DNA of 64,000 nt from positions 131,501-195,500 of the forward strand of contig NZ_LJSD01000075.1 in assembly GCF_001303895.1 (NCBI RefSeq), given 5' to 3'. Positions 8,179 through 12,739 of the stretch are shown piece after piece; within the stretch, counting starts at the first letter, position 1, and every line of letters begins with the position of its first letter. The position numbers were made by a program, and so were the translations under genes. Source of the DNA: Mesorhizobium sp. 1M-11. Lineage in GTDB: Bacteria > Pseudomonadota > Alphaproteobacteria > Rhizobiales > Rhizobiaceae. The notes under the pieces were generated by a model. It did not search any database, was not told the origin of the DNA, and saw nothing but the letters and a program-made list of their open reading frames with translations.

Positions 8179-10086
8179 ATGGCCAGCCGCTACCATGAGG
8201 TCTATGCCAACTGGAAACGCGACCCGGATGCCTTCTGGGCCGAAGCAGCCGAAGCAATCGACTGGTATCGCCGCTGGGACCGCGTCTTCGATCCGCGCGA
8301 GGATGTCTACGGCCGCTGGTTCACCGGCGCCGTCTGCAACACCTGCTATAATACGGTTGACCGTCACGTTACCGGTGGTCGCGCCGACCAGCTCGCGCTG
8401 GTCCATGACAGCGCCTATAGCGGAAAAGTCACGCGTTACACCTATGCCGAGCTGATGCGCGAGGTGGTTGCAACGGCATCGGTGCTCTGGAACCAGGGCG
8501 TACGCAAGGGCGACCGCGTCATCATCTACATGCCGATGGTGCCGGAGGCAGCGATCGCCATGCTCGCCTGCGCTCGTCTCGGCGCCATACATTCGGTGGT
8601 CTTCGGCGGCTTTGCCGCGCGCGAACTCGCGACCCGCATCGATGACGCGACACCAAAAGTCATCGTGTCCGCTTCCTGCGGCATCGAACCCGGCCGCGTC
8701 GTCCCCTACAAGCCGCTGCTCGACGGCGCCATCGAACTGGCCCGCCACAAGCCGGACGCTTGCCTTGTGCTCCAGCGCGAGGAATTACGCTGCGACCTCG
8801 TTTCCGGCCGCGACTTCGATCTTGCCGACCAGGTCGCGCGCGAACGCGCCGCTGGCGCCTGGGTCGACTGCGTGCGCGTCGCCGCGACCGACCCGCTTTA
8901 TGTGCTCTATACATCGGGCACCACGGGCCAGCCCAAGGGCGTGGTGCGCGACAATGGCGGCCATATGGTCATGCTGCGATGGACCATGGAAAATGAGTTC
9001 AGCGTCAAGCCGGGCGAAGTCTTCTGGGCAGCCTCGGACGTCGGATGGGTGGTCGGCCATTCCTATATCGTCTACGCGCCCCTGCTCGCCGGCTGCACGA
9101 CGGTGATGTTCGAAGGCAAGCCGGTGGGCACCCCTGATGCCGGCACCTTCTGGCGCGTCATTGCCGACCATGGTGTCGCCGCGCTCTTCACCGCGCCGAC
9201 CGCCTTTCGTGCCATCAAGGGTCAGGACCCGCAGGGCAGGCTCGTACCGGCTTACGATCTCAGCAAATTCCGCACCCTGTTCCTTGCCGGCGAACGCGCT
9301 GATCCCGAGACCATCAAATGGGCTGAACGGAACCTGAAAGTGCCGGTGATCGACCATTGGTGGCAGACCGAGACCGGTGCGCCGATTACCCAGAACCCGG
9401 TAGGCTTGGGTACGCTGCCGGTGAAATACGGCTCGCCCGGCGTGCCGATGCCCGGTTACGATATCCGCGTGCTCGATGATGCCGGTCACGAAGTGGCAAA
9501 AGGCGCACTCGGCAATGTCGTGTTGAAGCTGCCGCTGCCGCCCGGCTGCCTGCCGACGTTGTGGAAGGCGGACAAACGCTTCCGCCAGTCCTATCTCGAT
9601 GAGTTTCCCGGACACTACAAGACCGCCGACGCCGGCATGATCGACGAAGACGGCTATCTCTTCGTCATGGCCCGTACCGACGACATCATCAACGTCGCCG
9701 GCCACCGCCTTTCGACCGGCGCCATGGAGGAAGTATTGGCCGAGCATCCAGACGTTGCGGAATGTGCAGTCATCGGCATAGCCGACACGATGAAGGGTCA
9801 GGTGCCGCTTGGCCTGGTCGTTCTCAACGCTGGCGCAGCGCGCGAGGATGGTGCGGTCGAGAAGGAAGCCGTGGCCCTGGTGCGTGACCGCATCGGCCCC
9901 GTCGCCGCCTTCAAGACGGTGGTGACCATCAAGCGCCTGCCCAAGACCCGCTCCGGCAAGATCCTGCGCGGCACCATGCAGAAAATCGCCGACAAGGAAG
10001 CGTGGAAAATGCCCGCGACCATCGATGATCCTGCCATTTTGGACGAGATCGCCGAAGCTCTGAAGGCCCGCGGAATAGGTGCCTGA
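8179..10086 (+). CDS. prpE: Propionate--CoA ligase
   Basis: AMP-forming acyl-CoA synthetase activating propionate (possibly also acetate) to its CoA thioester; cytosolic. The 635 residues have the short ACS N-terminal domain (YHEVYANWKRDPDAFW), the P-loop-like YTSGTTGQPKGVVRDNGG, WWQTETGAPI, and the C-terminal KTRSGKILRG with the catalytic lysine that is usually regulated by acetylation. RDNGGH and the overall pattern fit PrpE better than acetyl-CoA synthetase. GGGAGGAAACGGG precedes the ATG. It stands alone without other propionate genes. Confidence 0.92.
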   Translation: MASRYHEVYANWKRDPDAFWAEAAEAIDWYRRWDRVFDPREDVYGRWFTGAVCNTCYNTVDRHVTGGRADQLALVHDSAYSGKVTRYTYAELMREVVATASVLWNQGVRKGDRVIIYMPMVPEAAIAMLACARLGAIHSVVFGGFAARELATRIDDATPKVIVSASCGIEPGRVVPYKPLLDGAIELARHKPDACLVLQREELRCDLVSGRDFDLADQVARERAAGAWVDCVRVAATDPLYVLYTSGTTGQPKGVVRDNGGHMVMLRWTMENEFSVKPGEVFWAASDVGWVVGHSYIVYAPLLAGCTTVMFEGKPVGTPDAGTFWRVIADHGVAALFTAPTAFRAIKGQDPQGRLVPAYDLSKFRTLFLAGERADPETIKWAERNLKVPVIDHWWQTETGAPITQNPVGLGTLPVKYGSPGVPMPGYDIRVLDDAGHEVAKGALGNVVLKLPLPPGCLPTLWKADKRFRQSYLDEFPGHYKTADAGMIDEDGYLFVMARTDDIINVAGHRLSTGAMEEVLAEHPDVAECAVIGIADTMKGQVPLGLVVLNAGAAREDGAVEKEAVALVRDRIGPVAAFKTVVTIKRLPKTRSGKILRGTMQKIADKEAWKMPATIDDPAILDEIAEALKARGIGA

Positions 10087-10099
10087 ACTGCCTTCCGCA

Positions 10100-10123
10100 C
10101 TCCTGACAGACTGCTGTCAGGAG
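10100..10123. promoter_or_regulatory. Inverted repeat CTCCTGACA-N6-TGTCAGGAG, site 1
   Basis: Perfect 9-bp arms, six bases apart, 40 bases before the start of the 55-aa protein gene. An identical arrangement occurs at 11187-11210 in front of the WYL regulator gene. The shared arms and spacing suggest an operator, most likely for that regulator. It does not look like a terminator, because no T-run follows. Confidence 0.7.
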
Positions 10124-10163
10124 GGGTATGCGATGATGCCTCCATCAAATGAAGGAGGCTGTC

Positions 10164-10331
10164 ATGAACCGTTTCGTCATCATCGATTCGCTGCATCGTT
10201 ATGTCGGCAAGATCCGCACGATCCGCAACGAGATCCGTACCGAGCGTCTGTTGAACAGCCTGCCATCCGAGATCCGCGCCGACATCGGCTGGCCGGATAT
10301 GTATAGCGGCATGCGCCGCCGCGAAGACTAG
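10164..10331 (+). CDS. Small DUF1127-like protein
   Basis: A 55-aa arginine-rich protein, MNRFVIIDSLHRYVGKIRTI onward, ending DMYSGMRRRED. The segment RTERLLNSLPSEIRADIGWP resembles the DUF1127 type of small rhizobial proteins (leucine-rich, then DIG), some of which bind RNA or act in nutrient regulation; for this one the role is unknown. AAGGAGG precedes the ATG at the right distance. The stop TAG is formed by the first bases of repeat copy 6. It lies just behind the site 1 inverted repeat. Confidence 0.75.
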   Translation: MNRFVIIDSLHRYVGKIRTIRNEIRTERLLNSLPSEIRADIGWPDMYSGMRRRED

Positions 10332-10431
10332 AGCGTTTCCGTTTTCACGGAAACGTGGAAACGCTCTGACTCTCTGTTTTGACGCAATTCCGGACGAAAA
10401 ACCGCTGCGCACTTTTCCTGGAATTGCTCTG
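10329..10431. repeat. Bipartite palindromic repeat, copy 6
   Basis: 103 bp, module A first. The initial TAG serves as stop codon of the 55-aa protein gene. Nothing else is supported between it and the PfpI gene at 10603 except an imperfect TGACA-N3-TGTCA at 10460-10472, which may be a weaker operator or a -35 region (TTGACA). Confidence 0.9.
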
Positions 10432-10602
10432 AGTGACTTTTTTCGGCGAACCCTTGGATTGACAGATTGTCACACCCAAGTAAGGGACCACGACTGACGC
10501 GCGCCATCCGGTTGGAGCATGTCCCAGGGAAGCGTGCCGGCCATTTGAGGTGTCGCGAAGAGCTGCGGAGGCGCGGCATCGAGACTAGGAAGGAACGGGA
10601 TC

Positions 10603-11193
10603 GTGCCGCAGAGCAAGAAGATCGGTTTCGTTTTCATCAACCGCTTTGCCGACTGGGAATACGGGCTTTTGGCGGCTTCCGCCGTCGAATGGTTCGGTGC
10701 GGAAGCCATCTCATTGACGCCTGAAGGCCAGCCCGTCACCTCGACAAGCGGTTTTCAGCTGACGCCGCAACGCTCGATCGACAGCACGGAGAATGCCGAC
10801 CTCGACGCAGTCGCGGTCATCGGTTCCGATGTCTGGGCGAGCGACGGCGCGCCGGATGTTTCCGGCCTGGTCAATGCTGTTGCAGCACGCGGCGGCGTTG
10901 TCGGCGGCATTTGCGCCGGCACCCTGGCGCTTGCACGGGCCGGCCTGTTCAAGGACAAGGCCCATACCAGCAACGGCCAGGATTGGATCCTGAAGCACCT
11001 GCCCACCTATGTGGGCGCGGAGCGCTACAACGACGTGCCGCATGCCGTAGCCGATGGGACGATCGTATCGGCGCCCGGGTCGGCACCAGGCACCTTCGCC
11101 AAGGAATTCATCGGCGCACTGTATCCTGACAAGCAATCCGAGCTGACCGAGATGCGCGCGCTGTTTGCCCGGGAGTACGGTGCAAGCTCCTGA
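10603..11193 (+). CDS. DJ-1/PfpI family glutamine amidotransferase-like protein
   Basis: 196-aa protein of the DJ-1/PfpI superfamily (class I glutamine amidotransferase fold). The nucleophile elbow is GGICAGTLALA, and PGSAPGTFAKEF near the C-terminus is the conserved helix of the YoaZ/PfpI subgroup. Members act as deglycases, chaperones or small-molecule hydratases; which applies here is not visible. Translation starts at GTG 10603 behind AGGAAGGAAC. The TGA stop lies inside the second inverted repeat, 80 bases before the WYL regulator gene. Confidence 0.9.
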   Translation: MPQSKKIGFVFINRFADWEYGLLAASAVEWFGAEAISLTPEGQPVTSTSGFQLTPQRSIDSTENADLDAVAVIGSDVWASDGAPDVSGLVNAVAARGGVVGGICAGTLALARAGLFKDKAHTSNGQDWILKHLPTYVGAERYNDVPHAVADGTIVSAPGSAPGTFAKEFIGALYPDKQSELTEMRALFAREYGASS

Positions 11194-11211
11194 CAATATG
11201 CTGTCAGGAGC
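11186..11211. promoter_or_regulatory. Inverted repeat GCTCCTGACA-N6-TGTCAGGAGC, site 2
   Basis: The same 9-bp arms and six-base spacing as site 1, with one more outer pair. It overlaps the stop codon of the PfpI gene and lies 61 bases before the WYL regulator ATG. A further half site CTGACAG follows at 11223-11229. This fits an autoregulatory operator. Confidence 0.7.
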
Positions 11212-11233
11212 ACAATGCCATACTGACAGAATG

Positions 11234-11252
11234 GAACGAATGCTCTTCGTTC
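11234..11252. promoter_or_regulatory. Second inverted repeat upstream of the WYL regulator
   Basis: GAACGAA and TTCGTTC, perfect 7-bp arms five bases apart, end 20 bases before the ATG. It is unrelated in sequence to the CTGACA-type sites. It could be a second operator or an mRNA hairpin in the leader. Confidence 0.5.
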
Positions 11253-11272
11253 GAACGGATGGGATCAAGACG

Positions 11273-11989
11273 ATGCGACGTGCCGACAGGCTTTTCCAGA
11301 TCGTCCAGCATCTGCGTGGCGGCCGTCTCGTCACCGCGCAGAAGCTAGGCATGTGGCTCGAAGTGTCCGAGCGCACCATCTACCGCGATATCGCCGATCT
11401 GCAGTCGACCGGTGTGCCGATCGATGGCGAGGCGGGCGTGGGCTACATGATGCGGGAAGGGTTCGACCTTCCGCCGCTGATGTTCACCCGCGACGAGATC
11501 GTGGCGCTGGTTGCGGGCGCCCGCATGGTGCGTGCCTTTGGCGGTGCTACCATGGCACGTGCCGCCGACGAAGCACTGGTCAAGATAGGTGCCGTGCTGC
11601 CGGACACCGAGAAGGACCGTATCGCCCGCACCGAAATCCATACACCAATGTGGGTAGTGAGCGATGCCGCCCGCGAAGCCATCGATCTGATCGAACGCTC
11701 GATCGAGAAGCGCCAGGTCTTGACCATCGACTACAATGACGAAGCCGGGCGCAGCACCGCACGCGACGTGCGCCCGCTCGGACTGTGGTTCTGGGGCAAG
11801 GTGTGGACGCTGGTGGCCTGGTGCGAGATGCGCGACGACTTCCGTGCCTTCCGCATCGACCGTATCGCTTCGCTCGATGTTGCCGGCCGTACCTTCAAGC
11901 CGGAACGCGGCAAGCAGCTCGCTGATTTCTACCGTGCGGTCGAGCGTAGCGAAGCCTACGGCATGGGACCGACCGCAAGGGGGGCGTGA
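11273..11989 (+). CDS. YafY/DeoR-type transcriptional regulator with WYL domain
   Basis: 238-aa DNA-binding regulator. Residues 1-60 form a winged helix-turn-helix (RRADRLFQIVQHLRGGRLVT, then SERTIYRDIADLQSTGVPI). A linker follows, and residues about 130-215 are a WYL ligand-sensing domain (RQVLTIDYND, VRPLGLWFWGKVWTLVAWCE). The ATG at 11273 starts the conserved part; upstream in-frame codons run into the inverted repeats. It probably controls itself, the PfpI gene and the 55-aa gene through the CTCCTGACA sites; this is inferred from position only. Confidence 0.92.
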   Translation: MRRADRLFQIVQHLRGGRLVTAQKLGMWLEVSERTIYRDIADLQSTGVPIDGEAGVGYMMREGFDLPPLMFTRDEIVALVAGARMVRAFGGATMARAADEALVKIGAVLPDTEKDRIARTEIHTPMWVVSDAAREAIDLIERSIEKRQVLTIDYNDEAGRSTARDVRPLGLWFWGKVWTLVAWCEMRDDFRAFRIDRIASLDVAGRTFKPERGKQLADFYRAVERSEAYGMGPTARGA

Positions 11990-12000
11990 GGCAGCAACGC

Positions 12001-12023
12001 CATCTCCCCTCATCGGGGAGATG
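12001..12023. terminator. Hairpin between convergent WYL regulator and trcR genes
   Basis: CATCTCCCC pairs with GGGGAGATG across a five-base loop, between two convergent genes. No T-run follows on either strand, so it may instead be a fragment of the CTCCCC-type intergenic repeat seen at 54377. Confidence 0.45.
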
Positions 12024-12046
12024 GACATGATTGCCGCGGGCTTCGC

Positions 12047-12739
12047 TTATTCTTCGTCTTCTTCCTCGTTCTTGCCCTTCAGCGCCGAGAGCTTGGCGAA
12101 GACGGCATTGGCATCGAGTTCCTCGTCTTCTGCCTTCGGCTTGTCGATCTCGGGCACGAGGCGTTCGGTAAGCGCGGCCGGCAGCAGCGTGTCGCCAACC
12201 GGTTGAACCTGCTCGCGGCCACGCGAGGCGCGCTGCACTTCAAGGTCGAGATCGATCTGCGAGCAAAGCCCCAGCGTAACGGGATCCATCGGCGCCAGAT
12301 TGGCCGAGTTCCAGTGCTTGCGCTCACGGATCTGCTCGATGGTCGACTTGGTCGTGCCGACGAGACGGGAAATCTGCGCATCCTTCAGTTCCGGATGGTT
12401 ACGCACCAGCCAGAGAATGGCATTCGGTCGGTCCTGGCGCTTGGACAACGGCGTGTAGCGCGGGCCCTTGCGCTTGGATTCCGGCACACGCACCTTCGGC
12501 TCAGACAGCTTCAGACGATGGTTGGGATCCTTCTCGGCGCGGGCGATCTCGTCGCGGGTGAGCTGGCCGGTGATGATCGGGTCCATACCCTTGATGCCTT
12601 GCGCCGATTCGCCGTCGGCGATCGCCTTCACCTCGAGCGGATGCAGCGAGCAGAACTGCGCGATCTGGTCGAAAGAAAGGGCGGTGTTGTCGACCAGCCA
12701 GACCGCGGTCGCCTTGGGCATCAGAAGTGTGTTGGCCAT
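12047..12739 (-). CDS. trcR: Cell cycle transcriptional regulator TrcR (DUF1013)
   Basis: 230-aa DUF1013 protein; the family is confined to Alphaproteobacteria and includes TrcR, tied to cell-cycle transcription in Caulobacter. The start MANTLLMPKATAVWLVDNTA and the segment FDQIAQFCSLHPLEVKAIAD are strongly conserved; residues 100-160 (ILWLVRNHPELKDAQISRLV) form a helix-turn-helix-like part, and the C-terminus is acidic. GAGAAGGA precedes the ATG at 12739; the frame is open farther upstream but nothing supports a longer protein. Confidence 0.92.
   Translation of the reverse strand: MANTLLMPKATAVWLVDNTALSFDQIAQFCSLHPLEVKAIADGESAQGIKGMDPIITGQLTRDEIARAEKDPNHRLKLSEPKVRVPESKRKGPRYTPLSKRQDRPNAILWLVRNHPELKDAQISRLVGTTKSTIEQIRERKHWNSANLAPMDPVTLGLCSQIDLDLEVQRASRGREQVQPVGDTLLPAALTERLVPEIDKPKAEDEELDANAVFAKLSALKGKNEEEDEE

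Follow-up and report, generated by a model that had tools for sequence, protein, structure and literature searches.

The 24-bp palindrome CTCCTGACA-N6-TGTCAGGAG, which occurs twice in the 64,000-nt stretch of Mesorhizobium sp. 1M-11 DNA analysed here (the window), is probably the site of the protein encoded by the adjoining WYL regulator gene, and would serve this protein as an activator site in place of a -35 element, a reading to which we give a probability of about two in three. Control sites of this kind, of which the two copies are one variant in spelling, adjoin the genes of one regulator family in many alphaproteobacteria. The fixed position of the site suggests that the stress genes behind it are switched on, not off, and activation is the likelier mode of this regulator, repression the less likely one. 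Among the numerous WYL regulators, few, to our knowledge, have a known site. For the family described here, sequence reveals, across a bacterial class, the site, the promoter geometry, which is fixed, and the family boundary. Consequently, direct targets of the family can be predicted in each genome, and a single reporter would suffice to test the activator model.

Palindromes, promoters and genes of the cluster

Both copies of the palindrome are exact 24-mers on the forward strand, with the same arms and the same spacing, as the sequence-only reading of this DNA had claimed. Palindrome 1 (CTCCTGACA-GACTGC-TGTCAGGAG, 10100-10123) is the proposed WYL site of a first promoter, on which it would occupy positions -44 to -21, with its N6 in the place of the -35 hexamer. 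Palindrome 2 (CTCCTGACA-ATATGC-TGTCAGGAG, 11187-11210), which overlaps the stop codon of the DJ-1/PfpI gene, is the proposed autoregulatory site. Each is followed on the same strand, 8 nt past the palindrome, by a candidate extended -10 box at an offset conserved in relatives (TGC-GATGAT at 10129-10137 for promoter 1, with a predicted transcription start, and TGC-CATACT at 11216-11224 for promoter 2). By chance, the exact palindrome is expected 0.01 times in the window, and two copies were seen in 0 of 100 shuffles; no further copy with up to three mismatches was found elsewhere in the 64,000 nt, and incomplete arms occur at 11125 and 11223. Moreover, a scan of 41 genus-sample genomes recovered the exact 24-mer in all 41, at 1 to 5 copies per genome, and 0 copies of the reversed control. 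This low expectation, the small number of copies per genus genome and the proximity to WYL genes described below lead us to reject chance or a plain repeat as the origin of the palindromes, and the original observation is right and stronger than first claimed. The weaker TGACA-N3-TGTCA that had been noticed with them is also real, at 10460-10472.

The gene order is acyl-CoA synthetase, palindrome 1, a 55-aa gene, DJ-1/PfpI, palindrome 2, the WYL regulator and a convergent TrcR gene (assembly of 6.69 Mb in 77 contigs). The WYL regulator (238 aa, 11273-11989, forward strand) and the DJ-1/PfpI family protein (196 aa, 10603-11193, forward strand) had been named from their letters, and both identities were upheld by Pfam matches above the cut-offs: PF13280 (65.4 bits against 21.8) and the N-terminal helix-turn-helix (HTH) family PF08279 (57.1 bits against 25) for the former, and PF01965 (61.8 bits against 26.6) for the latter. 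Conservation of the WYL frame starts at about 11273, the matches of relatives beginning there or a few codons earlier; several relatives have no start codon in this frame ahead of the one at the 11273 position.

Directly behind palindrome 1, on the forward strand, lies the gene of a small basic protein of 55 aa (10164-10331; RTER-LNSLP-DIGWPD-Y), for which the earlier label, DUF1127-like, is fair but weak. As in DUF1127 (PF06568), the protein is short and arginine-rich, and its LP-DIGW core resembles the DUF1127 end; furthermore, its Phyllobacterium counterpart, the only tested copy near the cut-off, falls just under it (E 1.8e-4, 21.6 against 23.3 bits). The window protein, in contrast, is below detection, having no Pfam match at E up to 10 and staying under the PF06568 cut-off. 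Nor did it appear when its own genome was searched for DUF1127 proteins at E up to 10, with 150 of 201 candidates scored. A profile comparison of the small proteins with DUF1127 (probability 2.8) carries little weight, as only two sequences stood on the DUF1127 side.

The interval between the small gene and PfpI holds a dispersed intergenic repeat whose head is an inverted repeat (GAGCGTTTCC..., 10332-10432, no strand assigned), which has at least 40 full-length matches in the genome, this copy included, 88-100% identical and several of them on the same contig (40 of 264 candidates scored). It also holds, upstream of PfpI, a conserved forward-strand element, TTGACAGATTGTCACACCCAAG (10459-10480), that differs from the palindrome. 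The stretch CTTGG-ATTGACAGATTGTCACAC-CCAAG, which spans 10453-10480, is identical in a sister genome (G005) though the surroundings differ, was not found at up to one mismatch in 19 other relatives, and looks like a putative site of another regulator. Since the dispersed repeat and this element both stand between the small gene and PfpI, read-through into PfpI is uncertain in this genome.

Conservation among relatives

The loci compared within the genus were the window and 32 of 36 relatives (n = 33; G002, G014, G019 and G032 were left out, and L079, which belongs to another family, was excluded). Both palindromes are present in 33/33 of these loci, with at most two changes in the 14 fixed bases, and a small gene stands behind the first palindrome in all of them; in 32/33, site 1 carries GACTGC as its N6. 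PfpI is found in 17/33 loci. In 26/33, broken copies counted, site 2 and the WYL gene are separated by the gene of an approximately 136-aa protein (SWN-RLNTPG...CPVTIGYHLR...FWRVLD; e.g., L139 1965-2372); because these two are variable in the genus, the constant parts are both sites plus the genes of the small protein and of the WYL regulator. A VOC gene is present in one genus locus (1/33). The protein of about 136 aa was also matched in Phyllobacterium; it has no Pfam family, and a PDB profile search gave nothing better than E 0.1. An alkyltransferase-like fold, suggested by the letters of this protein, was dropped, given these results and an AlphaFold pLDDT of 46.

Beyond the genus, conservation was read in the named loci, which are the best 80 of at least 584 confirmed relatives of the WYL gene (58-95% identity) and come from Mesorhizobium, Aminobacter, Nitratireductor, Phyllobacterium, Brucella, Roseibium, Rhodobacteraceae, Sphingomonadales and others; the closest relatives among the matches listed in this collection mostly carry the name Mesorhizobium. 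Within 2.5 kb upstream of the WYL gene, the palindrome occurs in 78 of these best 80 at up to two mismatches of the 14 fixed bases, in 73 at up to one and in 61 exactly, the count of 78 taking any site in that range, which in some loci is the small-gene site. In 49 of the same best 80 of at least 584, the WYL gene has a VOC (glyoxalase-like) gene ahead of it, within 1.2 kb and in the same orientation, with the site often about 450 bp ahead of the WYL start, and this VOC-then-WYL layout looks like the older arrangement. The small DUF1127-like gene is directly behind a site in 33/80, and PfpI is present in 20/80. The WYL regulon that had been proposed is real in outline, with the regulator's own gene and the small gene behind conserved sites.

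In Phyllobacterium (3/3 loci) the site is followed by the small gene, PfpI, a relative of the protein of about 136 aa and finally WYL, and a second site upstream of the WYL gene was not found in the three loci, so that one promoter may read all four genes. Because PfpI there follows the small gene and precedes the WYL gene, with one site ahead of all three, it is probably on the promoter 1 transcript in the window as well. The proposal that DJ-1/PfpI is a regulon member thus stands in part: the operon-like order of Phyllobacterium speaks for it, but the gene is optional both in the genus and in the named loci, and no palindrome directly precedes it. Two Brucella loci carry the site and the small gene directly ahead of the WYL gene. 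In other families, two tandem palindromes, 33-34 bp apart, were observed before WYL genes (L082, L083, L084).

Distance between the palindrome and the -10 box

For the geometry counts, loci at least 75% alike were removed, which kept 71 of 78 sites in one count, 70 in a second and 34 of 37 wider-clade sites, and counts on named loci required TGTC in the right arm. Within the genus, 66/66 sites carry A at -11 together with G at -14. Among the 71 non-redundant sites, A occurs at -11 in all, G at -14 in 93% and T at -15 in 82%. In the 70 non-redundant loci, which represent several orders, A was found at -11 in 70/70 and TG-N2-A at one offset in 56/70, against at most 5/70 at any of 23 other offsets and at most 6/70 on the opposite side of the palindrome (1/70 at the matching offset). 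An A at the -11 distance on the opposite side was seen in 23/70 of these closer loci, slightly above chance (p 0.009).

The bases in the -35 position are poor ones. With the usual 17-bp spacer, N6 matches TTGACA at 0 to 2 of 6 bases across the 70 non-redundant loci, and the best of spacers 16-18 gives a mean of 1.6 matches and a highest value of 4; moreover, no sigma-70 promoter with a normal -35 was found in 9900-12100. N6 is conserved and asymmetric (A in 92% and G in 99% of the 71 non-redundant sites), as expected if polymerase reads it; binding by a symmetric dimer would favour neither strand.

A site over the -35, a fixed distance to the -10 and a poor -35 are found together in the close family and more loosely in the wider clade, where A at -11 lies toward the WYL gene in 28/34 sites and away from it in 22/34. 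The presence of this A on both sides fits two-way promoters as in DriD, yet weakens the simple picture of self-control. Among the class-sample loci L255-L314, many palindromes near WYL homologues are flanked on either side by an A at the -11 distance, which would suit a site that serves two opposite promoters.

Coupling of the palindrome to WYL genes

The class sample comprised 240 alphaproteobacterial genomes, in which a WYL match was accepted at E <=1e-30. The exact palindrome was present in 22 genomes, a WYL match in 52 and both in 21 (Fisher 5e-15). Genome size might inflate this co-occurrence, yet larger genomes do not explain the proximity, 22 of the 29 exact palindromes of the sample lying within 1.2 kb upstream of a WYL gene. 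In view of the same proximity, the palindrome for the most part does not behave as a plain repeat between unrelated genes, and its link to a WYL regulator, first drawn from the window, extends to 78/80 of the named loci (best 80 of at least 584) and 21/22 of the class genomes.

Among the WYL homologues of the class, 60 of the 72 found were read (38-69% identity), the window's own gene and 11 low-scoring ones being omitted. A site with up to two mismatches lies within about 1.3 kb in 37/60, and the reversed pattern in 0/60, with a minimum of 4 mismatches. Residues were compared between these 37 homologues and the 16 with at least 4 mismatches, the seven with 3 mismatches being placed in neither group. 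Position 30 is E in 36/37 and position 48 is V in 36/37 of the homologues with a site; in those without, the HTH and wing differ, with E30 replaced by G in 10/16 and V48 by A in 12/16. Site and HTH vary in step, which would be expected if the protein reads this site. Positions outside the HTH also differ between the groups, and the HTH differences may be partly due to ancestry.

The WYL protein and its proposed action

The regulator is predicted to consist of a winged HTH, three helices and a WYL Sm-like domain. Its AlphaFold model, made from 48 sequences, is of middling confidence (pLDDT 70) and places helices 73-89, 92-108 and 111-118 between the HTH and the WYL domain, in a part with pLDDT 54-63. 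No WCX domain is present in the model, where only about 30 residues follow the WYL fold; this domain is reported in most but not all WYL factors (PMC10693628). A Foldseek search of the PDB returned, as first matches, PafBC on RNA polymerase and DriD on DNA (TM 0.3-0.4, rmsd >10 over the whole chain), with BrxR and CapW at ranks 12-23 and 27-29. Furthermore, the arginines of the WYL groove (F-R-x-D-R), R191, R194 and R197, are invariant in the 48 aligned sequences, and R194 and R197 align with FRL-S/D-R of PafBC; such invariance makes it likely that this WYL protein binds a nucleic-acid ligand.

In the model that we favour, a WYL dimer would hold the two TGTCAGGAG arms at -44 to -36 and -29 to -21, flanking the -35 position that N6 occupies, and so would bring RNA polymerase to extended -10 promoters without a usable -35. 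Polymerase would lie between the arms, the WYL protein replacing the missing -35, and the switch would be a nucleic-acid ligand on the WYL domain, a role held by single-stranded DNA in DriD and PafBC. The conserved targets would be the WYL operon itself, often VOC then WYL, and the small DUF1127-like gene; DJ-1/PfpI would be an optional passenger, probably read from promoter 1.

Activation against other readings

The sequence-only reading had taken the regulator for a repressor. A WYL protein that binds the palindrome and represses, covering -44 to -21 of the extended -10 promoter until a ligand frees it, is in our judgement unlikely, yet it is the strongest of the alternatives. The site does overlap the promoter and precede the regulator's own gene, as is common in autorepressors, and the structural model also matches BrxR and CapW, which are repressors. 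Moreover, 7 of the 22 class-sample sites near a WYL gene are only 16 to 40 bp from its start, which leaves little room for a leader and runs counter to activation. On the other side, one offset to the -10 dominates in 70 non-redundant loci of several orders, and because a repressor would not need a fixed spacing to the -10, the repressor label is not supported; the site has, relative to the -10 box, the position of the sites of WYL activators, no usable -35 is seen, and the first structural matches are activators.

It is still less probable that another global factor reads the palindrome and has the WYL gene as just one target among others. Such a factor would account for the 7/29 class-sample exact palindromes that are not near a WYL gene, for the single palindrome genome of 22 without a WYL match at E <=1e-30 and for the extra copies near other genes in genus genomes, but it is at odds with the co-occurrence (21/22) and proximity (22/29) of palindrome and WYL gene, and with sites at 37/60 WYL homologues against 0/60 for the control, those without a site having a different HTH. 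As for RNA hairpins, terminators or a dispersed repeat, the repeats are perfect inverted ones and one overlaps a stop codon; however, terminator-like sites are absent from 9900-12100, the arm letters are fixed, whereas hairpin arms could covary, and TG-N2-A, outside the stem, is conserved on one side (56/70 loci, against 1/70 at that offset on the other). A dispersed repeat, in turn, fits poorly with 1 to 5 copies per genus genome. We rejected the hairpin or terminator reading, and this whole group of explanations is very improbable.

Candidate targets outside the cluster

Under the preferred reading, in which the WYL protein activates from a site that stands in for the -35, further targets can be sought by scanning for the palindrome and the -10 as a single pattern. 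At one mismatch, this pattern was found in 38/41 genus genomes, and its reversed control in 0/41. In the genome studied here it occurs at six places, the window's two included, and the other four precede an EamA transporter, a LysE transporter, an unclassified protein and a 90-aa frame. In other members of the genus such places precede an MFS transporter and a GFA-family protein (PF04828), and in some members an exact palindrome stands before a second VOC gene. By their family names, these kinds of candidate target (GFA-type, second VOC, transporters) may point to defence against reactive or genotoxic compounds, which is the weakest part of our account.

Several palindromes do not follow the pattern. 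On neither side does the third exact palindrome of this genome (L005) show an A at -11. Among 15 extra exact palindromes of the genus, 4 lead into a second VOC gene with A at -11, 4 have an A on one side and 7 have none; those lacking it include the copies beside an XRE regulator and a desaturase. In L118, L120, L122, L123, L125, L131 and L132, an exact palindrome was observed just past the gene of a large protein, followed by a conserved cgctctttccatttt stretch and without a clear extended -10. In L225, L231, L232 and L252, the palindrome and a TATTTT box are conserved before an MFS transporter, together with a second motif of their own (TTGACATcat...); the opposite-strand gene beside the MFS site in L225, L231 and L232 is ArsR-like by its letters.

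More broadly, and as a tentative proposal that we hold to be rather doubtful, Alphaproteobacteria might share an unrecognised SOS-independent stress circuit, in which many short WYL activators would read the TGTCAGGAG palindrome as a -35 substitute, often in both directions, switching on VOC/glyoxalase, DJ-1/PfpI, GFA-type, small basic and export proteins upon damage to nucleic acids by reactive carbonyls or genotoxins.

Comparison with known WYL systems

A search of the literature, which covered titles and abstracts of mainly non-subscription papers, returned nothing on this palindrome or on the function of this WYL family. Judged by sequence, the layout here is that published for DriD and, in related form, for SiwR and PafBC; the PafBC site is not known to be palindromic.

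DriD, a WYL activator of Caulobacter crescentus, has an arrangement of HTH, three-helix bundle and WYL domain (PMC12340889) like the one predicted for the window protein, whose three helices lie in a low-confidence part of the model. Its site is reported to be centred on a poor -35, with two half sites around it, a fixed distance to the -10 and a conserved G at -14, and the published account includes several targets and a bidirectional case (PMC12340889). The two differ in the half site, which in DriD is ATACGAC-N7-GTCGTAT (PMC12340889), and in size, DriD having about 330 aa and the window protein 238 aa without WCX, with an identity of 22-24% over the Foldseek alignments. In addition, DriD reportedly leaves its own gene unregulated, whereas self-control is proposed here.

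SiwR of Mycobacterium smegmatis is similarly described as a homodimeric WYL activator with an imperfect palindrome just upstream of the -10 and a conserved GGA in the -26 region, this region being required, and in some Actinobacteria a glyoxalase-like gene (PF18029) adjoins it (PMC10693628). It differs from the family studied here in its targets, which are DinB/YfiT-like genes, in its 19-bp site, in the presence of WCX and in belonging to another phylum (PMC10693628). Finally, mycobacterial PafBC offers a likeness in sigma adaptation, in which the WYL activator is placed between sigma domain 4 and the promoter, and has a -26 motif and a single-stranded DNA ligand; it is set apart by being a heterodimer and by its DNA-damage regulon (PMC11804915).
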